DNA from: Sodalis ligni
GTDB taxonomy: Bacteria; Pseudomonadota; Gammaproteobacteria; Enterobacterales; Enterobacteriaceae
Direction: 5' to 3'
Assembly: GCF_016865525.2 (NCBI RefSeq)
Contig: NZ_CP075169.1
Location: 2,542,337 to 2,606,336 of the forward strand
DNA: 64,000 nucleotides
The notes under the pieces are model-generated. The model searched no databases and had not been told where the DNA came from. It worked only from the letters and a program-made list of their open reading frames with translations. A program made the position numbers and the translations under genes. Positions 11,382-54,601 of this stretch are shown here, piece after piece; within the stretch, counting starts at the first letter, position 1, and each line of letters starts with the position of its first letter.

Positions 11382-11926
11382 TCATTCGCGGAAATCCCCA
11401 TGCCCCAGCAGGCGGGAAATATGCTTATAGAGATGCAGCACCGAATAATCCCGCCGGGGGCTGACCCACACCGATGAATTGGTGGCCACGATGCCCAGGA
11501 TCCCCGGCAGATTCTGCAAATCCAGCACCTTGGCGATGGCGCGGGCATAACCGGCAATGGTCAAAATCAACACGAAATGGGTGTTATGCTCCACGCCCAG
11601 CACCATGGAAGACAAAGGATTCTCGATGGCCGGCCTGGCCTGGTGGCGCTGGTCGAGGGTATACACCTTGATGCCCTTGGCGTTGCGTACCTTGGTTACC
11701 CCAGGCTTTTCAGTAAACGCGATACGCTGGATTGCCCGATACGGGTGTAGCCGGCCCGGATCATCTCACGGCGGATTTCATCTTGGGACGCGTAATTATT
11801 ACTGCTGATCAATTGATGGCAGAGGTCAAGTTTTCGCTGTTCTTTCGCAGCTGAATCGGTGGATTTTTTTATCATGGATAGCCAGCCTGCACTGGAGGTT
11901 GAATGAGAAATCCATTGTTTAATCAA
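11382..11926 (-). pseudogene. ArgR-family arginine repressor paralogue, frameshifted
   Basis: The N-terminal DNA-binding half (KLDLCHQLISSNNYASQDEI, then SVSRLLKSLG) ends at a stop near 11696. The C-terminal arginine-binding and hexamer half (YTLDQRHQARPAIENPLS, then GILGIVATNSSVWVSP) continues in the next frame. Adding one G to the G4 run (complement of 11699-11702) restores LGVTKVRNAKGIKVYTLDQ through the junction, so a single -1 change breaks an otherwise complete repressor of about 180 aa. It is the last gene of the arc operon, where ArgR-type regulators commonly control arginine deiminase genes. It is distinct from the housekeeping ArgR, which normally lies beside mdh. Confidence 0.85.
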
Positions 11927-11995
11927 TCTGCTGGGTAAGCAAATCAGCGAACCGATTTGCCTACCGGCTTAACATTTACGTCACGGTTCGGCGCG

Positions 11996-13480
11996 TCAGG
12001 AAACCAGCTGGATTTGCCCCTGGGCAATCATGACCAGGGTGAGGATCGCCAACAGCACCAGCAGCACCGCAATGACGATTTCAAACGGTTTAAACAGCAG
12101 CGGCGCGCCAAGGCTGCTTTTATGCCAGGCATACACCGCGATGCCCGGTACGAACAGCAGCGAGGAAAGCATCATTTGACCACCGGCGGCATAACACAGC
12201 CAGATGCCGTAAAGCGTACCGATCAAGGCCAGGATGATATCGCCGCCGCGGGATTCCCCGTCCTGGTAGCTCTCTCCCCGCCAGGCCAGCTTCAGTCCAT
12301 AAGCGGCGCTGAATACATAAGGCGGCAGGATGGCGGCGGTGGCGATGGAAAACAGGGCCTGATAGCCGGCGCTGTAAAACAGGGTCAGCAGCAAAAACAG
12401 CTGGATCAGTCCGTTGGTGACCCACAATGCCGTTTCCGGCGAGTTATGGACGCCGGTTTTGCCGAAGAACCGCGGGAACATACCGTCTTTGGCGGCGACG
12501 TAGGGCAGTTCAGCGGCAAACAGCGTCCAGGCCAGCAGGGCGCCAGCCACCGACAAAATGACCCCCGCGGCGACAAACTTCGCCCCCCAGGCGCCGACAA
12601 TATGCTCCAGCACGCCGGCCATGGACGGATTTTTCAGTTGTCCCAGCGCGGCCTGTTCCAGCACCCCCATCGACAGCAGGCTCACCAGCAGATAAATGGC
12701 CAGGCAACCCAATAGCCCCAATACCGTTGCCTTGCCGATATCGTTACGCCGCGCCGCGCGGGTGGACACCACGGTGGCCCCTTCGATGCCGATAAATACC
12801 CAGGTGGTCACCAGCATGGTGCTTTTCACCTGTTCGAACAGCGCCGGGTGCTGATTGTCCACCTGGATAAGCCGACCCCAGAAATCGCTGCTGAACACAT
12901 CGAGGCGGAAGGCCACTACCGCTGCGCAGATAAAGACCATCAGCACCAGGACTTTCACCACCGTCAGGATAGTATTGATCAGCGCGGCTTCCTGTACGCC
13001 TTTCAGCACCAGGGTATGCACCAGCCACAACATAGCCGAGGCGCCCAGAATGGATTGCCAGTTATTGCCCAGCCCGAACACCGGGAAAAAGAAGCTTAGC
13101 GCGCTGAACATCAATACCGCATAGGAGACATTGCCGAGCCAGGCGGAAAACCAGTATCCCCACGCGGCTTGAAATCCGATGAAATCGCCGAAACCGGCGC
13201 GGGCGTAGCTGTATATACCGCCCTCCAGATCGGGCCGGCGGCGGTTCAGTAATTGAAAAATAAGCGCCAGGCAAATCATGCCCACCGCCGTAACGCCCCA
13301 GCCGATAAGCAGGGCGCCGGTGGAGGCGGAGTAGGCCATATTCTGCGGCAGGCTGAATACCCCGCCGCCGATCATGGAGCCGATAACCAGCGCCACCAGC
13401 GCGCTCAGGCCGAGCTTTTTCTCAGATATATTTTCAGCTGCGCTCAGGCCGTGTTTGTTATCAGAAGTATGTTCAGACAT
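11996..13480 (-). CDS. arcD: arginine/ornithine antiporter
   Basis: This 494-aa inner-membrane protein of the APC superfamily, basic amino-acid antiporter branch, has about 12-13 hydrophobic segments. The family signature [20 protein letters not shown] is at residue ~28 and [19 protein letters not shown] lies in the middle. It swaps external arginine for ornithine made by the pathway, so no net energy is spent on uptake. GGGAGG lies 5 bases before the ATG, inside the 3' end of arcB, and the two genes overlap by 8 bases. It appears intact. Confidence 0.93.
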
Positions 13481-14495
13481 ATAAACCTCCCGGGACGCCC
13501 AAGGTGGCCACCATCACCGCCTTGATGGTGTGCATGCGATTTTCCGCCTCATCGAACACAATGGAATGGCGTGATTCGAACACTTCATCGGAAACTTCCA
13601 GCCCTTTGAGCCCGTAGGTCTGCTCAATTTCGCGGCCGATAACCGTCTGCTCGTCATGGAAGGCCGGCAGGCAGTGCATAAATTTCACCTGCGGATTGCC
13701 GGTAGCGGCTACAACCGCCATATTCACCTGATAAGGCGTCATCAATGCCACCCGTTCGGCCCAGGTGTTTTTGGGTTCGCCCATGGAAACCCAAACGTCG
13801 GTATAGAGAAAATCCACCCCGGCCACGCCCTCGTCGATATGTTCGGTCAGCGTGATGGCCGCACCGGTATCCTTGGCGACGGCGCGGCACTGCGCCACCA
13901 GCGCTTCCCGCGGCTGGAAGCTTTTTGGCGATACCAGGCGGATATCCATGCCCATCTTCGCCGCGCCCACCATCAGGGAATTGCCCATGTTGTTGCGGGC
14001 ATCGCCCAAATAGGCGAATTTGATCTGGTTCAGCGCCTTGCCGCCGGCGTGCTCCTGCATGGTCATCAGGTCCGCCAGGATTTGCGTCGGATGGAACTCA
14101 TCCGTCAGCCCGTTCCACACCGGTACGCCGGCGTAACGCGCCAGCTCTTCCACAATCTGCTGTCCGTAGCCGCGGTATTCTATGGCGTCATACATCTTTC
14201 CCAGGACCCGTGCGGTGTCTTTCATCGATTCCTTGATGCCGATTTGCGAACCGGTGGGCCCGAGGTAGGTGACCTGCGCGCCCTGATCGAAGGCCGCCAC
14301 TTCAAAGGCGCAGCGGGTACGGGTGGAGGTCTTTTCGAAAATCAGCGCAATGTTTTTGCCCTGGAGATGCCGTGGTTCGTCGCCGGCGTATTTGGCTTTT
14401 TTCAGGTTCGCCGCCAGGGTGAGCAGATACCGGATCTCCTCCGGGCTGTAGTCCAGCAGTTTGAGAAAATGCCGATGATATAAATTGACGCACAT
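13473..14495 (-). CDS. arcB: ornithine carbamoyltransferase, catabolic
   Basis: The protein is 340 aa. The carbamoyl-phosphate motif is [17 protein letters not shown] (residues ~57-73), the ornithine loop is HCLPAFHD, and [19 protein letters not shown] are present. In the arginine deiminase pathway it runs backwards, turning citrulline and phosphate into ornithine and carbamoyl phosphate. Its place between arcC and arcD supports the catabolic name, although the sequence also resembles E. coli ArgI. GGAAG precedes the ATG. Catalytic motifs and length are complete. Confidence 0.92.
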
Positions 14496-14546
14496 ATTTT
14501 TCTTCCTTAAATAAATATCAGGCGGCGCAGCGGCCGCCGGTGGGGA

Positions 14547-15464
14547 TTAATGCAAGGTAATCAGCGTGCCGGTTTCGCCGCGCATAATGGCGACGCCCTG
14601 TTCCATGGCGCCGATGCCGGCCGTGCCGCCGGTAGCGGTGACAAACTCGCAAACCGCCTGGATCTTCGGCCCCATGGAGCCCGCGGCAAAATGCATGGCC
14701 GACAGCTCCAGGGGCGTGCTGTGGCGCAGCGCGGTCTGGCGTGGCGTGCCCCAGTCGCGGTAAACGGCGTCGGCGTCGGTGAGGATCAGCAGCGCGTCGG
14801 CGTTGATCTGGCGCGCCAGCAGCGCCGCCGACAGATCTTTATCAATCACCGCTTCGATGCCCCGCATGCCTTCAGCGCCACGTACCACCGGAATGCCGCC
14901 GCCGCCGTTGCATATCACCAGATGCCCCTTGGCCGTCAGGGCGTGAATCGCCTCGCGCTCGATAATCTGTACCGGCCGGGGCGAGGGCACCACGCGGCGC
15001 AGGGCATTGCCGTCCGCTTTCATGGCCCAGCCGCGCGCAGCCTGCAGCGCGGCGGCCTGCGAAGCGGTATAAACCGGGCCGATGAACTTGCTGGGATTGA
15101 GGAAGGCGGCATCTTGCGGGTCTACCTCCACCTGGGTCAGCAGGGCGCTGATGGGCATATCCGGCAGGGCGTTTTTCAGCGCTTGCAGCAGCATGTAGCC
15201 GATCATGCCCTGGGACTCGGCGCCCAGTATGTCCAAAGGGTAGGGCGTCACCTCGGTAAAGGCGCTGTTTTGCAGCGCCAGCAGTCCCACCTGGGGACCG
15301 TTGCCGTGAACCAGGATCACCTGCCACTCCCCGGTCAGGGCGGCGAGGGTTTCGGCGGCGGCGGCCACGTTGCGTCGCTGAGTTTGTGCTTCCAGCGGCT
15401 CGCCGCGTCTCAACAAGGCATTGCCCCCCAGCGCCACCACCAGGGTCGGTTTAGTCATATTCAT
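14547..15464 (-). CDS. arcC: carbamate kinase
   Basis: The protein is about 305 aa from the chosen start. It uses carbamoyl phosphate and ADP to make ATP, the energy-yielding step of the pathway. Motifs of the amino-acid kinase fold are LVVALGGNALLRRGE at the N terminus, ILVHGNGPQVG, the nucleotide region VICNGGGGIPVV and IDKDLSAALLA. A GTG start at 15497 is also in frame, but the ATG at 15464 has AAGGA eight bases upstream and matches the family N terminus. It lies 19 bases after arcA and appears intact. Confidence 0.93.
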   Translation of the reverse strand: MNMTKPTLVVALGGNALLRRGEPLEAQTQRRNVAAAAETLAALTGEWQVILVHGNGPQVGLLALQNSAFTEVTPYPLDILGAESQGMIGYMLLQALKNALPDMPISALLTQVEVDPQDAAFLNPSKFIGPVYTASQAAALQAARGWAMKADGNALRRVVPSPRPVQIIEREAIHALTAKGHLVICNGGGGIPVVRGAEGMRGIEAVIDKDLSAALLARQINADALLILTDADAVYRDWGTPRQTALRHSTPLELSAMHFAAGSMGPKIQAVCEFVTATGGTAGIGAMEQGVAIMRGETGTLITLH

Positions 15465-15483
15465 CTGTTTTGTCCTTAGGCGA

Positions 15484-16702
15484 TCAAAGTCCGTCACGCT
15501 GCAGCGGGCAGCTCATGCAGCGGGCTCCGCCCCGGCCGCGGCCCAGCTCGTCGCCGGGAATAGTCAGCACGGTAATGCCGGCTTTGTCATATTTCTCGTT
15601 GGTATAGGTGTTGCGTTCATAACCGATGACCACGCCGGGCCGCACCGTCAATACGTTGTTGGCATCGTTCCACTGCTCGCGCTCCGCTTCGAACGCATCG
15701 CCACCGGTAGTGATAAGCTCGATAGGGTCCACCTGCAGTACCTGTTCCAAGGACCGTAAAAATAGCGGCTCTTCGGTCATCTTCAATCCGCCCCGGCCGT
15801 CGGGGTAAGGTTCCAATAGCCCTGTTCGGCCTTGATGACTTCGGGATAAACCGAGAATTTATTCATATCCAGGTGAGTCATAACCGTATCCAGGTGCATA
15901 CATGAGCGGTGTTTGGGTAATTGCAGCGCCATAACCCGGTCGGCCTGATGATGTTTAAATAAGGAACGGGCCAGCAGTTCGACGCCCTGTGGCGTGGTAC
16001 GTTCGGATAAACCGATTAATACCGCTCCCCGGCCAATGACCAATACATCACCGCCTTCAAGAGTGGCATTATCATAATTAATCCTTTCGTCATCGAAATA
16101 TCTATAAAAGGATTGCCGGGCAAATAAAGGATGCCAGCGATAAATGGCACGCAAATTATTACTTTCCCGTCTCCTGGCCTCTTTAGCCATAGGGTTGATT
16201 GAGACGCCGTTATATATCCAGCAGGATGTGTCTCGAGTAAATAAATGATTCGGTAATGGCTTGATAATAAAATCAGTCGGGCTATGGCTATTTACCACCA
16301 TATTGGTAAAGCCGGTGGGCACCTCCTGGTAGCTCAATCCGCCGGTAAGAATCCGCGCCAGTTCCCGGTCGGGCAGGGTACGCAGCCAATGCTGTATTTC
16401 CAGGGCAAACGACGGTCCCAGGCGGAAATCCGACACCTGAGTGGTCAATAGCCACTCCTTGGCTTCGTCGATAGCCAGCGTTTGAGCCAGCATATCGGTT
16501 AATAGTAATACCTCCACGTCTTCCTTTCGCAGGATGTCGGAAAAATATCATGCTCTTTTCCCGCGCGCTCAACAGACAGGACATCGTCAAATAATAATTC
16601 CTGGCAGTTGGATGGGGTTAAATGTTTCAGGCTTAAATTTGGTCGGTGCAGCAGAACACGACGGAGTCGTCCTATTTCAGAACCCACATAATGACTTTGC
16701 AT
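15484..16702 (-). pseudogene. arcA: arginine deiminase with two -1 frameshifts
   Basis: Three frames together give a complete arginine deiminase of about 405 aa (arginine to citrulline and ammonia). They are the N terminus [20 protein letters not shown] at the ATG ending at 16702, the middle [20 protein letters not shown] with [17 protein letters not shown], and the C terminus [18 protein letters not shown] with the catalytic Cys. The first break is at the A5/T5 run 16541-16545: one more T restores [18 protein letters not shown]. The second is at about 15800-15805: one more base restores [10 protein letters not shown]. All active-site motifs are otherwise conserved, so the damage is very recent or is a sequencing artefact. 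It is the first gene of arcACBD. Confidence 0.92.
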
Positions 16703-16849
16703 GGTTAGTACCGCCTCTCACAGAATTAACAGGAGCAAAAGAGCGTAGGGTATCCCGCTCTCAAATAATCAATATTTGAAAGGGAAATAATTAAGCACCG
16801 CCTTCTTCATTGCGATGGCGGCCATATTAACCAGGCGGCTTAATTCGAA

Positions 16850-16865
16850 AGTGATCCGGATCACG
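16850..16865. promoter_or_regulatory. CRP-type site upstream of arcA
   Basis: AGTGATCCGGATCACG is a perfect GTGA-N6-TCAC palindrome, the CRP core. It also keeps the TGAT-N4-ATCA core of FNR, so either protein might bind. Its centre is about 155 bases before the arcA ATG. Confidence 0.55.
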
Positions 16866-16899
16866 CTTAATTTATTATTTGCCGTGCTGTGTTAGTTAG

Positions 16900-16913
16900 T
16901 TGATGGCAATCAT
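16900..16913. promoter_or_regulatory. FNR-type site upstream of arcA
   Basis: TTGATGGCAATCAT matches the FNR/Anr consensus TTGAT-N4-ATCAA at nine of ten fixed positions. Oxygen-controlled expression by FNR or Anr is well known for arginine deiminase operons. Confidence 0.6.
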
Positions 16914-16996
16914 TATTTAGGTATTTGGTATTATTCATGAACTGAATTTTTATGTGGTTTTATTGACTGGAGTTCCTTCCTCGCTGGATTTGATAT

Positions 16997-17011
16997 CCAT
17001 GACAGTCATGG
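16997..17011. repeat. 15-base perfect palindrome
   Basis: CCATGACAGTCATGG is symmetric around A17004. Its length and position suggest a regulator site, but no family can be named. Confidence 0.4.
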
Positions 17012-17227
17012 CTGGTTTTATAATACATTGAATGTTATGTATTTATTTGTCTTTCACACAGGGACATTAACATTTTATGCGTAGCGGTGGTTTTATATTT
17101 TACCGGGGCAATGTCAGGCTGGAAAACTATGCTGAATGGGGAGATTTTTACCGCGATGATGAATTGTGAACCGAAGCGCAGTTAAATTAATATCCATGCA
17201 TTAACAAGACATTAGGCGAACCTAAAG

Positions 17228-17241
17228 GTAACTATAGTTAC
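17228..17241. promoter_or_regulatory. 14-bp perfect palindrome related to the HxlR operator
   Basis: GTAACTATAGTTAC is self-complementary and is followed by TG. The string TATAGTTACTG is shared with the right half of the palindrome at 1043-1067, which suggests a second site for a similar regulator. Confidence 0.35.
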
Positions 17242-17333
17242 TGTTTTGGCGTTTTGGGTGCATAAAAATCCAGCCAAGATCGTAACGCTCCGGCAATAAC
17301 CGGAATAATTAATCACGGGCCGGCAAAGGGTGG

Positions 17334-18041
17334 CTATAAAGGGGTGTGGCGGCGGTATAGCCGGCGCGGATGGCCGATTTTGCCGTAGCGAATTTCAACG
17401 CTGAGGAAATCAATTTCCACGCAGTATTCCAGATAGCGGCGGGCGGTGGTTTTGCTCAGCCCGGTCTGGCTGACGATATCGTCAACGGAGTGCAGGCTGT
17501 CTTGCCCGGCGATAAAAATTTGCCGGATCAGATTGAGGGTATTTTCTTCGATACCCTTGCTGCCGGTATCCTGGCTGAATGTTTTGGATTGCAGCTGATA
17601 AAGGATATCGACGTTTTGCTGGTCCACCACTTTGAAGGCCCGCTGGGTCCGGGCAAACTGAATAAACCGTTCCAGCGAATGGCTCAGCCGCTTCCAGGAG
17701 ATGGGTTTAAGAATATAGTCGAACGCACCGCAGCGGATAGCCTGGCTACAGGTATTCATATCGCTGGCGGCGGTAATGAAAATCACCGAACATTCCAGTC
17801 CGCGCATAAGTTCGCTGTCGATTAATGAGATCCCCTCACCGTCCGGCAGGTAATTATCCAGCAGGATCAGCCGGGGCCGCTTTTGACGGAGCTGTTCCCG
17901 CGCGTCCTTCAAGGTGCGCGCAACGCCCACCAGACGAAGCTGTGCATGGCCGTCGATAAAATCAGCGTGCATTTGCGCCAGTTGGTTTTCATCTTCCACC
18001 ACCAGCACGTCAAAAATTTCAGGCTGTATCATCAGATTCAT
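17334..18041 (-). CDS. citB: CitB/DpiA-type response regulator
   Basis: The protein is about 235 aa. Residues 1-125 are a receiver domain: acidic pocket VVEDENQLAQMHADFI, the phosphoacceptor Asp in LILLDNYLPDGEG, Thr in FITAASDM and Lys in YILKPIS. The C terminus has the CitB/DcuR helix-turn-helix (VDDIVSQTGLSKTTARRYLEYC). CitB activates citrate fermentation genes when citrate is present without oxygen. The gene overlaps the end of citA by about 23 bases; ATGs at 18041 and 18032 are both possible. A longer upstream frame from 18134 lies inside citA and is unlikely to be used. Confidence 0.9.
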   Translation of the reverse strand: MNLMIQPEIFDVLVVEDENQLAQMHADFIDGHAQLRLVGVARTLKDAREQLRQKRPRLILLDNYLPDGEGISLIDSELMRGLECSVIFITAASDMNTCSQAIRCGAFDYILKPISWKRLSHSLERFIQFARTQRAFKVVDQQNVDILYQLQSKTFSQDTGSKGIEENTLNLIRQIFIAGQDSLHSVDDIVSQTGLSKTTARRYLEYCVEIDFLSVEIRYGKIGHPRRLYRRHTPL

Positions 18042-19663
18042 CCGGATTAATGAGGTCGGGTAACATTGCACGACTTTCCATCGGAATAAAAATGGAAAAA
18101 ACCGTACCATAAGGTTGATTGGCGGACACCTCAATGGTTCCGCCGCAATGATTCACATAATTTGCCACCAGGTGCAGGCCAAGCCCATGATCGCCGCTGG
18201 GTTTGGTGGTGATGCCCACGTCGAAAATCCGTTCCCGCATCGCCTGGGGGATACCGATGCCCTGATCGGCTATTTCGATCACCACATCACGGGCGCTACC
18301 GACAATATAGGCCTCTATGGGATAGCGCTCCCCCTTGCGCAACAGGGTTGCCTCAATGGCGTTATCCAGCAGGTTGCCGATAATCGACATCAGCTCGGTT
18401 TCGCGCAGGCCGGATGGCAGCTGCGCCAGGCCGCAGGCCGGATCAAATAACAACTCCACGTTTTTCTCACGCGCCCCGGCATACTTGCCCAGCAATAAGC
18501 CGCACAATGCCGGCGAGCAAAAACGCGCCGAGACGAAATCAAGTATTTCCTGGGCGCTTTCCGATTGCGCTTCAATATACCGTATTGCTTCATCATAGCG
18601 TTTCATATGCAATAACCCGGCGAGGGCGGCGGTCCAGTTCAACTGCTCATGACGCAAAATACGTAAATTATCCGCATAGCGCTTCACCTGGCTTAATTGA
18701 ACATTGAGACTGTTTATTTCATGCTGATCGCGAAAACTGATTACCCAGCCCTGCAACTTGTCCTCCAGCAAAATCCGCACGCGGCTGGCGATGACCGTAA
18801 CCTGATTGAAAAGGCAGATTTCGTCATGGGTATCGCTGGCCAGCATGGTTTTTTCATGCAGGAAAGGGATGGGTTTAATCACCGATGACAGGCGTTTGCC
18901 GCGCAGTTCTCTTGAGGACGCATGCAGGGAGAGTATCGATTTGGCCGCTTGATTGATCTCGGCAACGCGGTATTCTTTATCGATGGCAATCACGCCTTCA
19001 AAATGGATTCCAACAGCGCTTTTGCTGGCGGACCAATAGGCCTATTTCTCTTGGCTCCAGTGAAAACATCTGTTTCTTCATCGTATTGGCAAACCACCAG
19101 GAAAACACAAATAATGCCACCAGCAACATTAACGCCATCACGAGAATATTAATTAATTTCCCGGTGCTGAGCATATCGATACGAGTTTTCAAATAGCCGA
19201 TAGAAACAATGCCAATAATATGATGTTGCCCATCGAATATGGGCGCCTTACTGCGCAAGGAGATACCTAAACCGCCGCGCCGCACGGAAATGCTGTCTTT
19301 ACCTTGCAATACCTCTGTATTGTCTCCACCGATCATCGATTTGCCAATGCTGCCGGGATAACCCGAATGATATAAATGCATACCGTGCTCATCGCCGATA
19401 ACGATATAACTGGCATCGCTGCGCTTTGCCAATTTACCCACCAGGGCGGCAATGGCGTCGGTATCCTTGATTTCAACCGCATCAATCAGCGTGGGGATCA
19501 TGGCGATTTCCCGCGATTGGACCTGAGCGCGAGCGCCGAGTTCAGCATAAAGCTGCTTATCCAAGTCGTAGTAATAATATATGCCTATCAGCAATAGCAA
19601 TAATGAAAAGAAAAGGATCAGACTGATAAATAACTTAATATGGAAAGAAACTTTTATACACAT
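18019..19663 (-). pseudogene. citA: CitA/DpiB-type citrate sensor kinase, frameshifted
   Basis: The 5' part (from 19663) has a membrane segment (FISLILFFSLLLLLIGIYYY), a periplasmic PAS-like sensor domain and a second membrane segment, ending after EPREIGLLVRQQK. The 3' part has a cytoplasmic PAS domain, the H-box RHEQLNW, the N-box NLLDNAIEAT and the G-boxes ADQGIGIP and GDHGLGLHLV. Two -1 changes, at about 19017-19024 and in the A4 run 19000-19003, separate the parts. Correcting both gives QKALLESIFEGVIAIDKEYR, the usual junction. The kinase would pair with CitB and sense citrate in the periplasm. As read, no complete kinase is made. Confidence 0.88.
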
Positions 19664-19702
19664 AATAAATCATAGCCATTAGGCAAACGCGGTAATCTTA
19701 TC

Positions 19703-19716
19703 ATGATTAAAATCAG
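19703..19716. promoter_or_regulatory. FNR-like site in the citA/citS region
   Basis: ATGATTAAAATCAG keeps TGAT-N4-ATCA, eight of ten positions of the FNR consensus, in front of genes for anaerobic citrate use. Confidence 0.45.
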
Positions 19717-19739
19717 GTGTAAGGGCGCCAAATCTAAAG

Positions 19740-19755
19740 TGTGATCTCAACCACA
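19740..19755. promoter_or_regulatory. CRP-like site in the citA/citS region
   Basis: TGTGATCTCAACCACA matches TGTGA-N6-TCACA at nine of ten fixed positions. CRP control of citrate fermentation genes is established in Klebsiella. Confidence 0.55.
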
Positions 19756-20052
19756 ACCGTTGGGGATATTACCGCTAAATGTCGACCGAGTGTTAAAAAC
19801 TCAGTCTACATATCTCCCACCTTTCATTAACAAGCTATTTTTTGAGGAATAAAACCATTAAAACCATAAAACCATTGAAATCATATAACCCATAAAAATT
19901 CTATTAAGATAAATTGCGCCACTGCCATGACCATGAAATAATAAAATCCATTAAAATCTTTAAGACCTTTAAAATAGCGGTTTAAATTTGAATTCAATCA
20001 CATAAATAACGTCAGCCGTTTTTAGTATTCCAGCACTTATTTTACTTACCTA

Positions 20053-26364: not shown

Positions 26365-26910
26365 GTGACTCTGACCGGAGATATCGCCGCGGACGTTACG
26401 CTGGATCAACTGCTGGCGGCGAAGGAGCGCCGCGCGGCGCGGCAACGGGAGTGGATCGGCCGTTATGGCCGGCCGCTGATTTCGCTGACGCTGGTAACGC
26501 CGGGGCCGGTGAAGGATTCGGCCCCTTATCGGCAATTGATGGCGGAAGCCATCAACGTTTGCGAGGGGATGTTGACGGGCCGCGGCTGGCCGGTGGCGGC
26601 GCGACAGGCCTTTTGGCTGTCCACCGGACCGGAAGCGTTTTGGGCGGTGGGGCATGGGGCCGGGGAAATAAAAGCCGCCACGGTGGCGCTGGAGCAGCAG
26701 CATCCCCTCGGCCGTCTCTGGGATATGGATGTTATTTCGGTCCACGACGGTATTATCGGCCGCAATTTTCTTAGTCAGGCCGGACGCCGCTGTCTTGTCT
26801 GCGACCAACCCGCCCATGCCTGCGGGCGGTCCCGCCGGCATCCGTTGCCTCAGTTGACGGCTAGAATAAAGGATCTGCTGGAGGCGTATTTTGTCCGCGA
26901 TGAAAGCTGA
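26365..26910 (+). CDS. citX: apo-citrate lyase phosphoribosyl-dephospho-CoA transferase
   Basis: The protein is 181 aa. It joins the prosthetic group precursor made by CitG to CitD. Family features are LDQLLAAKERRAARQREWI, LVTPGPVKDSAPYRQLM, LWDMDVISVHDG and RRCLVCDQPAHACGRSRRHP. The GTG start follows the citF stop directly, with AGAGGA in front. The 3' end overlaps citG by 20 bases. It appears intact. Confidence 0.93.
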   Translation: MTLTGDIAADVTLDQLLAAKERRAARQREWIGRYGRPLISLTLVTPGPVKDSAPYRQLMAEAINVCEGMLTGRGWPVAARQAFWLSTGPEAFWAVGHGAGEIKAATVALEQQHPLGRLWDMDVISVHDGIIGRNFLSQAGRRCLVCDQPAHACGRSRRHPLPQLTARIKDLLEAYFVRDES

Positions 26911-27812
26911 AGCGCTGCGAAGCGACGCCGGCCCGATAAGCGGTAATCCGCCCATTCCGCTCCATTATCCCGTTGCCGATGCCGAACTTATGGCGGTGGC
27001 GCGGTTGGCCGCCGCCGCGCTGCGGGAGGAGGTGTATTTGACGCCCAAACCGGGACTGGTGGATAACTGCAATAACGGTGCGCACCAGGATATGGATTTA
27101 CCGCTGTTCCTGCGCAGCATCGCGGCCATAGTCCCCTGGTTCAGCCGCTTTACCGCCCTTGGCTATCGTTATGCCGCGCTTCCGGCCGGGGAGGTGCTGG
27201 CCCGTATACGTCCGCTGGGGCTGGCCTGCGAGCAGGGGATGTTTGCCGCTACCGGCGGCGTCAATACCCACAAAGGCGGGGTTTTCTCCCTCGGGTTATT
27301 ATGCACCGCCGCCGGACGGCTGAAAGGGCGCTTACAGCCGTTAACCCGCGGGGGATTGTGCGACGAAGTGGCGGCAATATGCGCCCGTATGGTGATGACA
27401 GAGCTGGCGGATCGCCGGCGGGCGGCTACGGCGGGGAGCAGCTGTTTCAGCGCTACGGCATGACCGGTGCGCGCGGGGAAGCGGCGAGCGGATTCGCCAC
27501 CGTGCGCCGGTATGTTTTACCCGACTGGGATCGCCTCAAGGCCGACGGCGCCGGCGAGCCCATGATTATGCTGCACTGTCTGCTACTGCTCATGGCTTAT
27601 AATCCCGATACCAACCTGGTCTCGCGCGGCGGCCTGCCGGGCCTGCATTTTGTGCAGCGCTACGCCCGGCGCTTATTGCTTTGCGGCTGGGATATCGCCG
27701 AGCTACGGCAAATGGATGCCGCGCTGACAGCGCTTTATCTCAGCCCCGGCGGCAGCGCTGATTTGCTGGCGGTGGCTTATGTCCTGGCGCACCTGCCCTA
27801 TGAACGGACATG
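26891..27812 (+). pseudogene. citG: triphosphoribosyl-dephospho-CoA synthase, frameshifted
   Basis: CitG makes the citrate lyase prosthetic group precursor from ATP and dephospho-CoA. The 5' frame carries EEVYLTPKPGLVDNCNNGAH and AATGGVNTHKGGVFSLGLLC. It breaks at the G4 run 27433-27436; one more G restores AATAGEQLFQRYGMTGARGE and continues to MAYNPDTNLVSRGG and YLSPGGSADLLAVAYVLAHL, where relatives end. The start is TTG at 26891, six bases after GGAGG; an ATG at 26900 has poor spacing. No stop follows the family's usual end, and the frame runs on into the next gene. As read, active citrate lyase could not be matured. Confidence 0.88.
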
Positions 27813-27882
27813 GACCGGCGCGCCTCGGTGGAATTTCCCTCGACGGGGTCTCGTCGCCATATTCCGACGACCCTTCGGCGCG

Positions 27883-28421
27883 CTGACCGTTCTGCTGGTG
27901 CCGGGCATTCAGGATAGCGGGCCGGAACATTGGCAAAGCTGCTGGCGGCAACGGCATCCGCACTGGCTGCGCATCACGCAGCGCAACTGGCAGGATCCGG
28001 ATCTGGACGGCTGGGTGGCGGCGATCCGGCGCGAGCTGGGGAGCAGCGCTCGCACTTACTGTTGATAGGCCATAGCTTTGGCGCGCTGTCATCATGGTAT
28101 TTCGCCAGCCAATTCCCCGGCGTGGTGGCCGGCGTAGTGCTGGTGGCGCCTGCCGAACCGGTGCGTTTCGAGCTTGAAGAGCGTATCCTTGCCACCCCGT
28201 TACCGGTGCCAAGCCTGCTGTTCGCCAGCCATAACGACCCGCTGCTGGCGTTCAGCCGCGCCCGCTACTGGGCACAGGCCTGGGGTAGTGAGCTGGTGGA
28301 TGTCGGCGAGGGGGGGCATATCAACGCACAATCGGGTTTCGGCGCCTGGCCCCACGGTTTGCAGCGCATCGGCCAGTTCGCCCGCGAACTGAATCCCGGC
28401 CCTGCCCGCGGGCTGTTTTAA
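27883..28421 (+). pseudogene. RBBP9/YdeN-type serine hydrolase, frameshifted
   Basis: LTVLLVPGIQDSGPEHWQSC is the family N terminus, GHSFGALSSWYFA contains the nucleophile Ser, and GGHINAQSGFGAWPHG holds the catalytic His. The two halves lie in different frames, joined if one G is added to the G4 run 28038-28041 (giving ELGEQRSHLLLIGHSFG). No ATG, GTG or TTG begins the first half; it is in frame with the end of citG, so it is either a fusion or uses CTG at 27883. A function in citrate use is not known for this family. It may be an unspecific passenger of the operon. Confidence 0.7.
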
Positions 28422-31474: not shown

Positions 31475-32015
31475 ATGACAGATTCCGTTTACGACATTCC
31501 CGTTAAAAATCGACGGCACCGCCGCCAGCCTGGCGGACTATCGCGGCAAAGCGCTGCTGGTGGTTAACGTCGCCTCCAAATGCGGCCTGACCCCGCAATA
31601 CGAAGCATTGGAAAAGCTTTATCAGGACCGGCATTCCCAGGGGCTGGAAGTGCTGGGTTTTCCCGCCAATAACTTCAAGGGCCAGGAACCGGGCAGCGAT
31701 GCGGAGATCAAGGATTTTTGCACGCTGACCTACGATGTGCATTTCCCGCTGTTTTCGAAAATTTCGGTGCTGGGGGAGGACCGGCATCCGCTGTACGGGA
31801 AATTAACGGCGGCGCAGCCGGACGCCATAGGAGAGGGGCCGTTCCGCGAACGGCTGAAAGGCTACGGCGTCGATCCCGTCAATCGCCAGGATGTATTATG
31901 GAATTTTGAAAAATTCCTGATTAACCGGCAGGGCGAGGTGGTGGCGCGTTTTGCGCCGGATGTGACCGCCGACGATCCACGGTTGCTGTCGGCCATTGAT
32001 AAAGCTCTGGCGTAA
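31475..32015 (+). pseudogene. glutathione peroxidase, frameshifted near the N terminus
   Basis: The protein would be about 180 aa, a thiol peroxidase of the GPx/BtuE type. The reactive Cys is in NVASKCGLTPQY, Gln in FKGQEPGSD and Trp in VLWNFEKFLI. The ATG at 31475 follows AGAGGA and reads MTDSVYDIPVK, but the A5 run 31505-31509 has one A too many. With four A the frame continues KIDGTAASLADYRGKALLVV into the long frame. Most of the enzyme is intact downstream, and a start at GTG 31560 would lack the first strand. Confidence 0.85.
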
Positions 32016-37081: not shown

Positions 37082-39216
37082 GTGTCTCGAACCATTATGC
37101 TAATTCCAACCGGTACCCATGTGGGGCTGACCAGCGTCAGTCTCGGCGTGATCCGGGCCATCGAGCGCAAGGGCGTGCGCCTGAGCGTATATAAGCCCAT
37201 TGCCCAGCAGCGCGACGGCGCGAGTTTGCCGGACCAGACCACCGCCATCATTCGGGCCAATTCAGGGATCCCCGCCGCGCAGCCGCTGGCGATGGACTAT
37301 GTGGAAACCCTGTTAAGCACCAATCGCCGCGATGTGCTGATGGAGGAGATTGTCGCCCGCTATCATGAAACCCGGCAGGACGCCGAAGTGGTCCTGATTG
37401 AGGGGCTGATGCTGACCCGTCGCCATCAGTTCGCCAATGGTCTGAACTACGACATCGCCCGGGCGTTGAACGCTGACATGGTTTTTGTCACCACCCTGGG
37501 GGCCGATTCACCGGCGCAGCTGAAGGCGCGGCTGGAGTTGGCCTGCGCCGGGTTCGGCGGCTGCCAAAACAAGAATATCGCCGGGGTTATCATCAATAAA
37601 TGGCACGCCCCGGTGGATGAACAGGGCCGTACGCGCCCAGACCTGTCCGAACTGTTCGACGCCGCCAACCAACATGATGACGCCGCCGCGGATACCCGCC
37701 CCCGGTTTGCCGACAGTCCGCTAAAGGTCTTGGCCTGTATCCCCTGGAACTATGATCTGATAGCCACCCGCGCCGTGGATATGGCCGGGCATCTTCATGC
37801 CCACATCGTGAATGCCGGCGATCTGCAGACGCGCCGGGTGCAGTCCGTGACTTTCTGCGCCCGCGGTTTGGCAAATATGGCGCAGCACTTTCGCGCCGGC
37901 GCGCTGCTGGTCACCTGCGCGGACCGCCCCGAAGTGCTGGTGGCGGCCTGCCTGGCCGCCATGAACGGGGTGGCCATCGGCGCGGTCCTGCTCACCGGCG
38001 GCTATCCCATTCCCCCGGCCATTGCCACGCTGTGCGAGCGGGCGTTTCAGACCGGTTTGCCGGTGATGATGGTCAATACCAATACCTGGCAGACGTCCCT
38101 GAGTTTGCAAAGCTTTAATCTGGAAGTGCCGGCGGACGATCGTTTACGGGTGGAGAAAGTACAGGACTACATGGCCGGCTACATCGATAGCGGGTGGATT
38201 GATTCACTGAGCGCTGCCTCGGAGCATTCCCGCCGCCTCTCGCCGCCGGCATTCCGTTATGCCCTGACCGAACGGGCACGGCGGGCCGGCAAGCGCATCG
38301 TGTTGCCGGAGGGGGGTGAGCCGCGCACCATCCGGGCCGCCGCCATCTGTGCCGACCGGGGCATTGCCCATTGTGTCCTACTGGGCAATCCCGACGACAT
38401 TCGCCGGGCGGCCGCGGCCCCGGGCGTGATTTTGGGTGACAATGTGGCGCTGCAGGATCCGGCGCCGCTGCGCGAGCGCTACCTGGGGGGCTGATGGAGC
38501 TGCGTAAAAGCAAAGGCATGACCGAAGTGGTGGCGCGGGAGCAATTGGAAGACAACGTGATGCTCGGTACCCTGATGCTGGAGGCTGGGGATGTGGACGG
38601 ATTGGTTTCCGGCGCGGTACATACCACCGCCAATACCCTTCGTCCGGCGTTGCAGCTGATTAAACCGGCCCCGGGCAGTTCGCTGGTTTCATCGGTATTT
38701 TTCATGCTGTTGCCGGAGCAGGTGCTGGTATACGGCGACTGCGCCATCAATCCCGATCCGGATGCCGAACAGCTTTCGGAAATCGCCATTCAGTCCGCCG
38801 ACTCGGCCGCCGCCTTCGGCATCGAGCCGCGGGTAGCGATGATGTCCTACTCCACCGGCACCTCGGGCACCGGCAGCGATGTGGATAAAGTGCGGGAAGC
38901 CACCGCGCTGGCGCGGCGCAAACGCCCGGATCTGGTGATTGACGGCCCGCTGCAATACGATGCCGCCATTATGGCCGACGTGGCGCGCACCAAGGCGCCG
39001 GACTCGCCGGTGGCCGGCCGGGCCACGGTCTTTATTTTTCCGGATCTGAATACCGGCAATACCACCTACAAGGCGGTACAGCGTTCCGCCGACCTGGTTT
39101 CCATCGGTCCGATGCTGCAAGGCCTGCGCAAACCGGTCAATGACCTGTCCCGCGGTGCCCTGGTGGACGATATTGTTTATACGATAGCCCTTACCGCCAT
39201 CCAGGCCACGCAATAA
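37082..39216 (+). pseudogene. pta: phosphate acetyltransferase split by a -1 frameshift
   Basis: Together the parts give a full Pta of about 711 aa (acetyl-CoA and phosphate to acetyl phosphate). The N-terminal P-loop-like domain starts [20 protein letters not shown], the DRTGG domain follows, and the catalytic domain begins at [20 protein letters not shown]. The first frame ends at 38494 after RERYLGG. The second starts with ATG at 38494 in a TGATG overlap and carries [21 protein letters not shown] and [12 protein letters not shown]. One more G in the G6 run 38485-38490 would restore [12 protein letters not shown]. The break lies inside the catalytic domain, so separate halves would probably be inactive. 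No ackA is adjacent, which is unusual. Confidence 0.9.
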
Positions 39217-42020: not shown

Positions 42021-42754
42021 TCACCCGTCATCGTTGGTAAGCATCCGGCTGCCGGGGCTGAAGAATTTCTGCGGGATAAAGCGGTCAAAACCTTTCTCTT
42101 TGCAAAATGCCTGGAATTGGCTGAGGTTATGCACATCGGCTTTTTGATAAATCTGTTGTAATTTATTCTCTATGGTCCGGTGCGAACGGTTGAGTCGTTT
42201 GGCGATATTTTTACTGGGCATGGATTGCAGGGCGAAAAAAATCACGTCCAGTTCTCCTTCAGTAAACAGATTTTCCGGCGGGTAGAAGCGAAAGAATCCC
42301 GGCTGCTCGCCGTTGAGATGCTTTAGCAGAGAGAAGTTTTCAAATTGCCGGGCATGAAATATTGTGCCGACACATTGGGCCGTGGAATTGTCAAACAAAG
42401 GAAATTTATCAAAATAATAAGGCTTTAATATTTGCTCAGGACCATAGCAATGAATTTCCAGCGAACACAGCCGGTCTTGAACCGCCAGGGTATTACGATC
42501 GTGCTCTTTGAAAACCAGGCAAATCTCGCAATGGAGCACGGCAGTTCATCATCATAATATCCTTCAATACTCATTGATGCAGGATTAATATTGATCAGCT
42601 CATAATAAGCTTTATTTGCATAAACATACTGCGAATAGATATTTTTAACGCCCCAGGGTTCCCTCGATGTCTCCCATAAAAGAAGAAGCTGCTGCGATAT
42701 ATCGATGGAATACTTTTGAAAGGCTTCAAAGGCTTGACTGATATTGCGATCCAT
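42021..42754 (-). pseudogene. PAS-like/LuxR-type regulator, frameshifted
   Basis: The first frame (ATG ending at 42754) reads about 70 residues including EPWGVKNIYSQYVYANKAYY, a PAS-like ligand domain. The second frame continues the PAS and ends with a LuxR helix-turn-helix (FALQSMPSKNIAKRLNRSHR, then TIENKLQQIYQKA). Adding one base near 42540 joins them as DELPVLHCEICLVFKEHDRN. The repaired protein would be about 244 aa. It diverges from the DUF917-HyuA genes across a 394-base interval and may have controlled them. Confidence 0.8.
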
Positions 42755-43148: not shown

Positions 43149-44261
43149 ATGCGCCTATTGGATAAACACGCGATTGAACATATCAGTATCGGCGCCTCGC
43201 TTATGGCGAGCGGCGGCGGCGGCGATCCATACATCGGCAAAATCATGGCGCTGAAGGCCATAGAGGAACACGGCCCGCTGGCATTGGTTTCCGTCGGGGA
43301 GCTGTCGCCGGATGATTTGCTGCTGTCCACCGGCATGATAGGGTCGCCCACGATCATGATGGAAAAAGTGCCGAACGGTAATGAATCCGTCGCCGCCTGC
43401 CGGCTGATGGAAAGGCGGCTGGGCAGGAAAATCGCCGCTATCTATCCCATCGAGGCCGGCGGAATCAACTCCCTGCTGCCGCTGGCCACCGCTTCGCGCC
43501 TGGGCCTGCCGGTGGTGGATCTGGACGCCATGGGACGGGCCTTCCCCGAGTTCCAGATGACGACATTTCATCTCGAGGGCGTGGGGGCGTCGCCTTTTGT
43601 CGTGGTCAACGAAAAATACGATTCCTGCGTGGTGGAAGCCGACGACAATCATATGGCGGAGAAGTTTGCCCGTGCGGTTTCGGTGAAGATGGGAGGCGCG
43701 GCCATTTTTGCCGCTTATCCCGTTTCCCCGGCGCAGGCGGCGAGATCGGGCATTACGGGATCCCTGAGCTTTATGCAGAACGTCGGCCGGATGGTGGAGC
43801 AGGCACGCCGCGATAAATCCGGCATGGTATCCATGCTGACGAAGGCGCTGGGGGGCTATGTCTTGTTCCGCGGTAAGGCCGTCAACGTGGATCAGCGCAG
43901 TGAAGGAGGCTTTACCCTGGGGGTGGCGGCGTTCGCCGGCGTGGATGACCAAAAGGGCAGGCAGTTCGAGGTTTATTTTCAAAACGAATATCTGCTGGCC
44001 CGATGCGGGGCCGCTCCGGTTTGCATGACCCCCGACCTGATTATCCTGTTGGATGAGGATACCGGCCTGCCGATCCTGAGCGAACGATTACGCTACGGCG
44101 TGCGGGTGGCGGCATTGGGCGTCCCGGCCAACGAAAGATGGCGCACGCCGCGCGGCATCGAAGTGGCAGGCCCCCGCTATTTCAATTACGACACTGATTT
44201 TATCGCGGTTGAAACCTTGGCCGCCGGAAACGGGGAACATGACCATGACCATGACATATAG
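43149..44261 (+). CDS. DUF917 family protein
   Basis: The protein is 370 aa. LLDKHAIEHISIGASLMASGG with a GGGGDPYIG loop is the family N terminus. IYPIEAGGINSLLPLATASR and DLDAMGRAFPEFQMTTFHLEG follow. DUF917 proteins nearly always neighbour hydantoinase/oxoprolinase genes, as here, and one branch acts on thiohydantoins. The exact reaction is unknown. The last residues are alternating His-Asp (EHDHDHDI), which may bind metal. The 3' end overlaps the next gene by about 20 bases. Confidence 0.85.
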   Translation: MRLLDKHAIEHISIGASLMASGGGGDPYIGKIMALKAIEEHGPLALVSVGELSPDDLLLSTGMIGSPTIMMEKVPNGNESVAACRLMERRLGRKIAAIYPIEAGGINSLLPLATASRLGLPVVDLDAMGRAFPEFQMTTFHLEGVGASPFVVVNEKYDSCVVEADDNHMAEKFARAVSVKMGGAAIFAAYPVSPAQAARSGITGSLSFMQNVGRMVEQARRDKSGMVSMLTKALGGYVLFRGKAVNVDQRSEGGFTLGVAAFAGVDDQKGRQFEVYFQNEYLLARCGAAPVCMTPDLIILLDEDTGLPILSERLRYGVRVAALGVPANERWRTPRGIEVAGPRYFNYDTDFIAVETLAAGNGEHDHDHDI

Positions 44262-45808
44262 AATCGGAATCGACGTCGGCGGAACCAACACCGATGCCGC
44301 CTTGCTTAACCGGCATAGCATCGTTGTCGCCCGTACCAAGCGGCCCACCACGGCGGATATCATGTCGGGAATCGACGATGCCATAACCGCCTTGCTCGGC
44401 GAGGCCGATATCGATAAGTCCGCCATCAGGCGGGCCATGCTCGGTACGACCCACTGCACCAACGCCATTGTTGAACGCAAGGGCCTGAACCCGCTGGCTC
44501 ATTTCCGGCTGGGGGCGCCGGCTACCCTTGCCATACCGCCGTTAAGCGATATTCCCGACGATTTGCGCCGCCTGTTGTCAGACCGGCTGTTTATCGTGGG
44601 CGGCGGTTACGAATATAACGGCGACCCGCTGGCGCACCTTGACGAAGCGCTGATTCGCAGATACCTGCGGGAAGTGAAAGGGCAGGTGGATTCGATTTCC
44701 GTCTGCGGCGTCTTTGCGCCGGTGTCGGACGTCCAGGAACGGCGGGTGGCGGTGCTGGCGCGGGAAGAGCTGGGGCCGGAGATTGCTCTTTCCCTGTCAG
44801 GAGAAATCGGATCCATCGGTTTACTGGAGCGTGAAAACGCCTGTATTTTAAATGCCGCGCTGCATGGTGCCGTCCGCGATATCACCGAGGGGTTTCGATA
44901 TGGCGCTGCGCCGGCACGACATCCACGCGGAGATTTATTTCGGGCAGAACGACGGCACCCTGATGACGCTGCGGCAGGCGCGGGCCTTCCCCATACATAC
45001 CGTCGCCTCCGGTCCCACCAACAGCATCCGCGGGGCATCGTACCTGGCGGACGTGCGTGATGCCCTGGTGGTGGATGTCGGCGGTACCACCACCGATATC
45101 GGCATATTGTCGAAAGGGTTCCCGCGGGAATCGAGCCATGCCGCGGAAATAGGCGGAGTGCGAACCAACTTTCGCATGCCGGACATTATTTCCATCGGGC
45201 TGGGGGGCGGTTCCATTGTCACGGTGGGCGCCGGCAACAGCATCCGTATCGGCCCTGAAAGCGTGGGATATGAATTAACACGGCGCGCCTTGATTTTCGG
45301 CGGCGACACCATAACCGTCACCGATATTTCGGTGGCGAAGGGTCTGATGCATCTGGGAGATAGCCGGCGGATCCGGCATTTATCCGCCGAACTGGTGGAG
45401 CGGGCTTATACGCGCTATGTCGGCATGGTGGAGGATGCGATAGACCGGCTGAAAACCCAAGACGATCCCATACCGGTGATTCTGGTGGGGGGCGGGGCCG
45501 GGTTGCTGCCCACCCGATTGCGGGGCGCCTCGAAGGTTATCAGGCCGGTGAATGCCGATGTGGCCAATGCCGCCGGGGTGGCCCTCGCCCAGGTCAGCGG
45601 CAGCGTCGATACCATTGTGTCCCTGAGACACCGGGATCGGGAGAGCTGGCTGGCGGATGCCGCCCTCATGGCGCGGGCAGCGGCCATCACGGCGGGAGCG
45701 ATCCCGGGCACCGTCGAAATCATCGATCTTGATACCTTGCCCCTGGCCTATATGCCCGGCAATGCCGTGCGCATACGCGCTAAAGCGGTGGGGAGCCTGA
45801 AGTTCTGA
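44239..45808 (+). pseudogene. HyuA-type hydantoinase/oxoprolinase, frameshifted
   Basis: The N-terminal frame has the actin-like ATPase start YRIGIDVGGTNTDAALL, then MLGTTHCTNAIVER, and runs to ITEGF. The second frame begins at DMALRRHDIHAEIYFGQNDG and holds VVDVGGTTTDIGIL, IGLGGGSIVTVG and VILVGGGAGLLP. The frames meet at about 44888-44896 if one base of GGGG or TTT is removed, a +1 change. The repaired protein is about 520 aa, an ATP-dependent amidohydrolase subunit. ATGs at 44239, 44245 and 44251 repeat as ATGACC; the second has the best spacing to GGGGA. No HyuB follows. Confidence 0.85.
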
Positions 45809-45918
45809 AACGACGGAGCCGGGGGGTATTCGTTACTCTATACCCGGATATCTTCGCTTCTTAACATGGAAGAACCTTAACCTGTAATGATGCGCATGTA
45901 GTGTGCGGGAGAAGTAGC

Positions 45919-46518: not shown

Positions 46519-46619
46519 ACAGGCACGGGCAAAGGCGTTCCATCACACCTTGGCGCGCCATCGTTTATGCCGGCAATCGGCGGCGCGTAATGACGCATAA
46601 AGCTCTGCCCGTGCAGCTA

Positions 46620-47763: not shown

Positions 47764-47766
47764 TAG

Positions 47767-51286: not shown

Positions 51287-51302
51287 ACACGTCTCCTGAA
51301 TT

Positions 51303-51368: not shown

Positions 51369-51449
51369 TGGGTATGGTGTCATGGAATTCCGACATTATA
51401 TCGACAAAAATTTCCCGCGCTCCACTACTCTTTAATCCAGGTCTATAAC

Positions 51450-54400
51450 TCAGGCGGTCAGGCTTTCCCTCACCCTGCTTTTACGGCTGACCAGGGTGCG
51501 CAATGCGACATAAAACACCGGGGTCAGGAACAAACCGAACAGGGTGACCCCCAGCATGCCGGCGAATACCGTAATGCCGGTGACGCCGCGCACTTCCGCG
51601 CCGGCGCCATGGCCCAGAATCAGCGGCACGGTACCGGCAATGAAGGCGATGGAGGTCATGACAATCGGCCGCAGCCGCAGGCGGCAGGCTTCCAGTGCCG
51701 CCTCGACAATGCTTCGGCCCTGCATTTCCAGTTCGCGGGCGAACTCCACAATCAAAATAGCGTTTTTACAGGCCAGACCCATCAATACCACCAGCCCCAC
51801 CTGGACAAAGACATTATTGTCGCCGCCGGTGAGCCAGACGCCGAACAGCGCGGAGAGCATGGTCATGGGCACAATCAGGATCACCGCCAGCGGCAGCGTC
51901 CAGCTCTCATAAAGGGCCGCCAGCACCAGGAACGCCAGCAACACCGCCACCGGGAAGACGATAAGCGCCGTATTGCCCTGGGTGGACTGCTGGTAGCTCA
52001 AATCGGTCCATTCGATATTCATGCCGAAGGGCAGCACATGGCTTGCTATCGCGCTTACTTTTTCCATTGCCTGGGCGGAGGAGAGAATACGCGGATTGGC
52101 GTCGCCGATAAGGTCCGCCGCCGGGTAACCGTTATAGCGGATCACCGGATCCGGTCCGTATGTGGTGCCCAGGGTCACCATGCTGCCGATGGGCACCATT
52201 TCCCCTTTATTGTTGCGGGTGCGCAGATTGGCGATATCGCCGGTACTCTGGCGGAACGGGGCGTCCGCCTAGGCGAAGACCTGCCAGGTGCGCCCGAATC
52301 GGTTAAAGTCATTGATATAGGTGGAACCCAGATAGGTTTGCAGCGTAGCGAACAGTTCGGTGAGCGGCACTCCCTGCGCCTTGGCTTTATCCCGGTCGAC
52401 GCGGGCGTCCAGCTGCGGCACATTGGCCTGATAGGCGCTGATGGGGAATTGCATCCCCGGCGTCTGGGCAATGGTGCCGGACATGGCGTTAACCGCGTTT
52501 TGCAGCGCGCCGTAGCCCAGGCCGGCGCGGTCCTGGATATACAGTGAATATCCGGAGCCCTGGCCCAGGCCCAGAATGGGCGGCGGCATGATGGAAAACG
52601 CAAAGCCTTCCTGAATCTGGCTGATTTTGGCGTTGATCTCGGCGTTGATCTCAAGGGCGGTGCGATGCCGTTCGCTCAGGGGTTTCAGGGCGAAAAATAC
52701 CGTGCCGGTATTGGGTGTATTGGTGAATTGCAGAGCGTTAAGACCCGGAAACGATACCGCGTCGCTGACGCCTTCGGTATTCATGCCCATGGCGCTGATT
52801 TTGCGAATGACCGCATCGGTACGGGCCAGGGACGATCCTTCAGGCATTTTCACGCCGGCGATGAGGTAGAGTTTATCCTGGGTAGGGATAAATCCGCCCG
52901 GCACCGCTTTAAACATCACCCCCGCGCCCACCAGCAACAGGATATAGACCGCGAATACCGCCCCGCGCCGGTTGAGGGTGCGGGCGACGGCGCGCTGATA
53001 GCGATGGGAGCCGGAAGCGAAAAAGCGGTTAAAGGGCCGGAACAGCCAGCCGAGCAAATGGTCTATCAGGCGCGTCGGCATGTCTTTCGGCGCGTCGTGG
53101 GACTTCAGCAGCAGGGCCGCCAGGGCCGGCGACAGCGTCAGGGAATTGATGGCCGAAATCACCGTGGAAATGGCGATGGTCACCGCGAACTGCTTGTAGA
53201 ACTGGCCGGTCACGCCGGACAGAAACGCCATGGGGACAAACACCGCGCACAGCACCAGCGCGATGGCGACAATAGGGCCGGACACCTCGCGCATGGCCTG
53301 GTGGGCGGCTTCCACCGGGCTGCGTCCCTCGGAGATATTGCGCTCGACGTTCTCCACCACCACGATGGCGTCATCCACCACGATGCCTATGGCCAGCACC
53401 AAGCCGAACAGGCTGAGCGTATTAAGGGAAAAGCCCAGCAAATAGAGGATGGAAAAGGTGCCGATGACGGATATGGGCACCGCCAGCAGCGGGATAATCG
53501 ACGCGCGCCAGGTCTGCAGGAACAGGATGACCACCAATACCACCAGTATCACCGCCTCAAACAGGGTCTGGATCACGGCGTGAATGGAGTCGCGCACGAA
53601 AATGGTCGGGTCGTAAGGGGCTTTCCAGGTCATGCCCTGGGGAAAGCGGGTGGCCAGTTCGGCCATTTTTGCCCGTACCGCGTTGGACAGGTCGATGGCG
53701 TTGGCGCCGGGGGACTGAAAGATGCCGATGCCGACCGCTTCCTGGTTGTTTAACTGGGAACGCAAGGCATAGCTGCCGGCGCCCATTTCAATGCGGGCCA
53801 CATCCCGCAGCCGTACCACCTCGCCGTCATCGCCGCTTTTGAGAATGATATTGCCGAACTCTTCCTCGTTTTCCAGCCGGCCCCGGGCATTGATGGATAA
53901 TAAGAAGTCGCTGGTGGTGGGCATGGGCTCAGCCCCCAGCTGACCGGCGGAAACCTGCACATTCTGTTCGCGGATAGCGGCCACCACGTCCGAGGCGGTC
54001 AGTCCGCGCGACGCTACTTTTTGCGGATCGAGCCACACGCGCATGGCGTACTCGCCGGCGCCGAACACCTGGATTTGACCGACGCCGGGCAGGCGGGCCA
54101 GTTCGTCCTTGACGTTGAGGGTGGCGTAATTGCGCAAATATAATGAATCATATTTGCCCGACGGGGAGGTCAGATGTACCACCAGGGTCATGGTGGGGGA
54201 TTGTTTCTGGGTGGTGACGCCCTGGCGAACCACATCGTCGGGCAGCCGGGCCTGAGCCTGCGCCACCCGGTTTTGCACCTGCACCTGGGCCTGATCCGGG
54301 TCCGTACCGGGGCGGAAGGTCACGGTGGTCACCAGGACGCCGTCCGAACCGGCGACGGATTTCATGTACATCATGTTTTCCACGCCGTTGATCGCTTCTT

Positions 54401-54601
54401 CCAGCGGCGTCGCCACCGTTTCGGCGATTTCCTTTGGATTGGCGCCAGGATATTGCGCCCGCACCTGCACGCTGGGAGGCACCACCTCAGGATATTCGCT
54501 GATAGGCAACAGCGGGATGGCAATAATGCCGGTGACAAAAATAATGATAGATAAAACGGCGGCAAAATTGGCCGATCGATGAAAAACCGGGAAAAGTCCA
54601 T
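51450..54601 (-). pseudogene. RND efflux pump inner-membrane transporter, frameshift plus amber codon
   Basis: A complete pump of about 1050 aa (AcrB/MexD type, HAE1 family) can be read with two defects. The ATG at 54601 starts MDFSRFFIDRPI, but one T is missing in the A4/T4 run 54564-54567; with five T it reads PIFAAVLSIIIFVTGIIAIP into the long frame. At 52269-52271 an in-frame TAG stands where FGRTWQVFAQADAPFRQ is expected, a CAG-to-TAG change. Family motifs are intact: GIVVDDAIVVVENVERN with the proton-relay Asp pair and GLACKNAILIVEFARE. AAGGA precedes the ATG. The adaptor gene lies just upstream; no outer-membrane factor is in the window. Confidence 0.9.

Follow-up and report, generated by a model that had tools for sequence, protein, structure and literature searches.

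The genome of the deadwood bacterium Sodalis ligni is written as one contig of 6,443,694 bases. A stretch of 64,000 nucleotides of it (positions 2,542,337-2,606,336; the whole stretch is called the window here) shows a series of genes with interrupted reading frames, among them arcA (arginine deiminase), citA (citrate sensor kinase), citG and pta (phosphate acetyltransferase). This raises the question whether the genes are decaying in the organism or were broken in the written sequence. An earlier note on this DNA had offered both options, a recent loss of anaerobic and accessory functions on the one hand and uncorrected homopolymer errors on the other. The latter is upheld by deletions that run in one direction, by a clustered shortening of single-base runs that extends to non-coding DNA, by broken essential genes and by unbroken CitG and HyuA proteins in the database, while a recent loss of anaerobic functions is not supported. 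With high probability, the gene breaks in the window are sequencing or assembly errors, located in patches of poorly corrected long-read consensus. This is claimed for most of the breaks and not for each of them; single breaks may be real.

Genomes and regions compared

The S. ligni genome studied here is very probably that of the type strain dw23T, which is listed at 6.44 Mb (excerpt of PMC9241852). As main comparison genome served Sodalis sp. dw_96 (G002), the closest named relative found, the contig 1 of which comprises 719,987 bases. Both sequences were 88% identical in the first region compared, and the average nucleotide identity of dw23 to dw96 is likewise given as 88% (excerpt of PMC8226273). 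The published dw23T assembly was obtained from MiSeq and MinION reads with Unicycler and pilon, that of dw96 from short reads only (PMC8226273, section 6). The published assembly comprised 32 contigs (excerpt of PMC8226273), the present version a single one.

Five regions were compared with dw_96: the window plus 200 kb (region A, 151 open reading frames (ORFs) of dw_96, 164 kb), the dcw cluster (B, 93 ORFs, 102 kb, covering the existing part of the dcw contig of dw_96), the surroundings of dnaE (C, 70 ORFs, 73 kb) and rpoBC (D, 22 ORFs, 24 kb), and the DNA upstream of the window (E, 40 ORFs, 39 kb). Frame breaks were counted leaving out the first and last 30 bases of each gene; of the two ORFs compared, the longer was taken as whole, and the event was charged to the genome with the shorter one. 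In a separate test, the lengths of single-base runs of at least five bases with matching flanks were compared directly between S. ligni and dw_96. The G005 genome, tried as an outgroup for the assignment of events to a branch, could be aligned over 53 kb in region A, at 79%, and over 123 kb in region B, at 82%; it was not used further.

Direction of the indels and length of single-base runs

The frame breaks of region A are almost exclusively losses. A single base was missing from S. ligni at 37 sites and one was extra at 2 (binomial p 3e-9, in 164 kb of dw_96 coding sequence); of other sizes not divisible by three, ten events were losses and one was a gain. Base-losing events were found beside runs of at least four identical bases in the S. 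ligni sequence in 32 of 47 cases, compared to 13% of random positions. The excess of missing bases is weaker outside region A, with 6 missing versus 3 extra single bases in region B (other sizes: 2 and 2), 4 versus 3 in region C, none of either kind in region D, and 5 versus 0 in region E, where one other event was counted. Events charged to dw_96 numbered 2, 5, 3, 0 and 2 in regions A to E, respectively. One of the two in region A lies inside a patch at 75 kb described below and was probably charged to the wrong side. Premature stops caused by substitution were rare in region A (2 in 151 genes); 7 were found in 4 ORFs of region B, 5 in 3 ORFs of region C and 2 in a single ORF of region D, many of them in short, doubtful ORFs.

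The same direction was found in the run lengths. Of 303 runs of dw_96 in region A, 27 were shorter and one was longer in S. ligni, whereas of 286 S. ligni runs only 3 were shorter in dw_96 and 8 were longer (27/303 versus 3/286 shortened, Fisher p 6e-6). Shortened runs lay next to each other, forming 11 adjacent pairs; 5000 permutations gave 2.29 on average and never more than 8. They were present in non-coding DNA (12 of 45 runs) as well as in coding DNA (15 of 258), although some of the DNA treated as non-coding in this test may contain unrecognised genes. The assembly contains patches, from tens of bases up to about 850 bases long, where single-base runs fall one or two bases short of their dw_96 counterparts. 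The clearest of them lies outside the window, with eight consecutive shortened runs at 75,248-76,093 of the extended sequence (genome about 2,617,584-2,618,429). This patch is part of a stretch with an additional 73% match elsewhere in dw_96. Within the window, three consecutive runs were shortened at 19,020-20,019, and neighbouring events span the borders of genes, from citG into the serine hydrolase gene and from the pump gene into that of its adaptor.

Essential genes elsewhere in the assembly

The breaks are not confined to dispensable genes. Proteins of E. coli K-12 encoded in six clusters with many essential genes were compared, 131 in total; 123 of them had a match in S. ligni, and eight were not found or too dissimilar. 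Six of the 123 were flagged, of which four are encoded in a broken frame, namely FtsA, MurG, CoaA and, near its end, FtsI. The genes ftsA, murG, coaA and ftsI are essential in E. coli, and the written sequence is therefore almost surely wrong at least at these four places. Full-length ORFs are present in dw_96 at ftsA, murG and ftsI, the counterpart of coaA lying outside the comparison. The two remaining flags were set aside. In ftsW the stop precedes the start of the gene, and in rpsG it was taken to fall in the C-terminal extension of the E. coli K-12 protein. The distinction drawn in the earlier note, according to which accessory genes are broken and housekeeping genes intact, is consequently valid within the window and fails for the genome.

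Broken genes in the window and their relatives

All gene breaks reported for the window before (Table 1) are present in the sequence as written, as judged from tblastn pieces in different frames, from the whole-region alignment to dw_96 and from Pfam matches to the separate pieces. The genes reported as intact (maeB, kup, folM, ppk2 and sodC) were each found in one frame. Nine of the 42 dw_96 genes mapping inside the window were flagged by the counter: citA, citG, pta, hyuA, sodC and the genes of the serine hydrolase, the LuxR-type regulator, the RND pump and the adaptor. The flag on sodC is taken for a difference in the start codon, its domain being complete in a single frame. The gpx break lies within the gene edge ignored by the counter; an A-run is shorter there than in dw_96, and the remaining open frame covers the 108-position GSHPx profile only from position 26 onwards. 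Of the argR-like gene, the C-terminal Pfam domain is encoded in one frame and the N-terminal part, as read by eye, in another.

Table 1. Interrupted genes and the shortened patch in the window of S. ligni (positions in the window)
Feature	Position	Strand	Evidence
argR-like gene, two frames	11382..11860 (upper end approximate)	-	Arg_repressor_C in ORF 11382-11666; three-frame translation
arcA (arginine deiminase), three pieces	15487..16702	-	tblastn with outside ArcA proteins P0001 and P0003; ADI domain in both main pieces
citA (citrate sensor kinase), three pieces	18013..19833	-	dw_96 alignment, tblastn, Pfam
Patch lacking single bases, covering citA and its upstream DNA	19002..20048		run comparison with dw_96
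citG, two pieces	26891..27798	+	dw_96 alignment, tblastn, Pfam, database protein
Serine hydrolase, two or more pieces	27800..28412 (start approximate)	+	dw_96 alignment, tblastn, Pfam
gpx (glutathione peroxidase), break at gene start	31500..32015 (start approximate)	+	A-run comparison, GSHPx profile
pta (phosphate acetyltransferase), two pieces	37082..39216	+	dw_96 alignment, tblastn, Pfam
LuxR-type regulator, two pieces	42021..42754	-	dw_96 alignment, tblastn; GerE domain in one piece
hyuA (hydantoinase/oxoprolinase), two pieces	44239..45808	+	dw_96 alignment, tblastn, Pfam
RND-family pump, frame break near start and in-frame stop in later third	51450..54605 (upper end approximate)	-	dw_96 alignment, Pfam
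Pump adaptor (HlyD-type), frame break near C-terminal end	54656..55930	-	dw_96 alignment, Pfam

Database searches were made with pieces of three genes, and for two of them (citG and hyuA, not arcA) a near-identical, unbroken protein was found. The first citG piece retrieved P0121, a protein of 304 residues in one frame, the later part of which is identical to the second citG piece in 122 of 122 residues and the first part of which matches at 98%. With the second hyuA piece, the unbroken P0241 (522 residues) was obtained, which matches the two hyuA pieces at 98.6% and 98.4%.

The comparison with close relatives that the earlier note had proposed was carried out on stretches fetched from four further genomes. 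In all of G001, G003, G004 and G005, citG, pta and the serine hydrolase gene are in one frame. The LuxR-type gene, hyuA and the genes of the pump and its adaptor were matched only in G003 among these four, again in one frame. The citA gene is in one frame in all four genomes; its alignments contain one or two stop symbols, tentatively attributed to a query starting upstream of the true start. Twelve control genes intact in the window were checked as well; citF is split in G003 and contains a stop in G004, and the S-Me-THD gene has a stop in dw_96, so that the relatives themselves are not free of breaks. The citF gene occupies two frames at G003:C174:98415-99936 and has one in-frame stop at G004:C216:12028-13539, which might be real decay or errors in the sequences of the relatives.

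The arcA and argR-like genes are part of a stretch that dw_96 is without. The arginine deiminase cluster and the argR-like gene together occupy approximately 6.1 kb (11235-17317), where the collinear dw_96 sequence has about 130 bases. Judged from this alignment, the stretch would be an island either gained in S. ligni or lost in dw_96.

A published comparison took strain 159R as index and dw23 as query and listed 120 deletions and 50 insertions (excerpt of PMC9241852). These numbers agree with a shortage of bases in dw23 if they are given relative to the index. The comparison is supposed to cover part of the genome, because only 3,072 single-nucleotide variants were reported.

Origin of the breaks

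Several observations weigh against an assembly error as the cause. The density of shortened runs is uneven among the regions, with 27/303 in A, 4/72 in E, 5/169 in C, 1/42 in D and 2/202 in B. The reverse numbers, i.e. runs shorter in dw_96, are 0/71 in E, 0/168 in C, 0/42 in D and 4/202 in B, and therefore there is no excess of shortening in B and a small one in C, D and E. When this order was set against the distance from the replication origin (oriC assumed next to the atp genes, its location in E. coli), a tie between the two was only suggestive. Some runs within patches are not shortened (e.g. near 54.58 and 214.56 kb), and neither the extra bases in hyuA, murG and ftsI nor the in-frame stop of the RND pump gene (near codon 777 of 1051, not an indel) can be a shortened run. 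Three of the four broken essential genes belong to the dcw cluster, only coaA being broken among the other five clusters. The arcA database search found no protein of S. ligni, the best match being at 90%. When the genes of region A were divided by constraint into thirds of equal length, events numbered 9 in the most constrained third, 16 in the middle one and 25 in the least constrained, and the genes affected 7 of 50, 11 of 45 and 14 of 56, respectively. Finally, the published hybrid assembly had been polished with pilon, which should have removed many such errors (PMC8226273, section 6).

The gradient with constraint, the stop in the pump gene and the single breaks seen in relatives (citF in G003 and G004, S-Me-THD in dw_96) would fit true recent pseudogenes in a lineage that is losing accessory functions, citrate fermentation and arginine deiminase included, via small indels. 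Such a lineage would be expected to spare its essential genes, and all four of the broken proteins among the 123 matched to the E. coli clusters are essential there. True decay is very unlikely also in view of the two substitution stops in 151 genes compared to 37 + 2 one-base indels, of the clustered shortening that includes non-coding DNA, and of a one-frame CitG that is identical in every residue after the break. In being free-living, having a large genome, carrying interruptions in E. coli-essential genes and showing far fewer stops than frame breaks in region A, S. ligni differs from the insect symbionts S. glossinidius and SOPE. With these members of the same genus, known for many pseudogenes (excerpt of PMC8226273), it shares the many interrupted reading frames, which is a point in favour of decay. 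It is extremely unlikely that genome decay is just beginning in a free-living Sodalis lineage, through a real, recent and local burst of one-base homopolymer deletions that silences anaerobic pathways for citrate and arginine, and that the broken essential genes are assembly errors of separate origin.

A mixture in equal parts, with many breaks being errors and a sizeable share of those in the window true pseudogenes, would account for the uneven regional density together with the constraint gradient, and for the stop in the pump gene that is not an indel. It is considered unlikely, as both window genes with a near-identical database protein are unbroken there and most accessory genes of region C are free of breaks (4 of 70 genes affected), which favours a regional density of errors over selection. 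The position of many breaks at single-base runs could also point to reversible phase variation by homopolymer slippage. Runs of four to six bases are short for this process, hardly any S. ligni runs are shorter in dw_96, and unrelated genes, non-coding DNA and essential genes are affected in local clusters, so that its probability is practically negligible. Programmed frameshifting was rejected, as it cannot account for so many unrelated genes and for non-coding DNA.

Assembly error being the favoured explanation, the patches would be sites at which the consensus was drawn from long reads, which call single-base runs too short. Effective short-read correction might have been missing there, e.g. 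across gaps bridged in the short-read assembly or in parts of it with thin coverage. A patch overlapping a gene would then break its reading frame, and most of the genes concerned are expected to be whole in the living cell. As an artefact, the finding belongs to a known class: the errors of long-read assemblies are mostly errors in homopolymer length, which fragment genes (excerpts of PMC8812927 and PMC12007338), and single-base losses at runs likewise split ORFs in S. ligni. As with such errors, the losses are absent from the short-read relative and from near-identical database proteins. Unlike them, they are not evenly spread and occur in patches of uneven density, as if part of the sequence had remained uncorrected.

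The genome appears to be that of the type strain of the species, and the finding is useful as a warning on this reference. Taken at face value, the sequence would lead pseudogene counts and reconstructions of citrate, arginine and acetate metabolism to report losses that probably do not exist, and comparisons with the decaying Sodalis symbionts would be affected likewise. Comparing run lengths with a short-read relative provides a simple way to find such patches without reads.

Other features of the window

Approximately 1.15 kb at 46611-47765 are absent from dw_96 and contain an ORF (46719-47342) with transposase-like helix-turn-helix domains; the segment is probably an insertion sequence. 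ORF 45901-46518 resembles leucine-rich repeats by eye and has no Pfam match. Shifted matches to one and the same dw_96 stretch reveal a tandem repeat at 61270-62070, consisting of about five units of approximately 107 bases.

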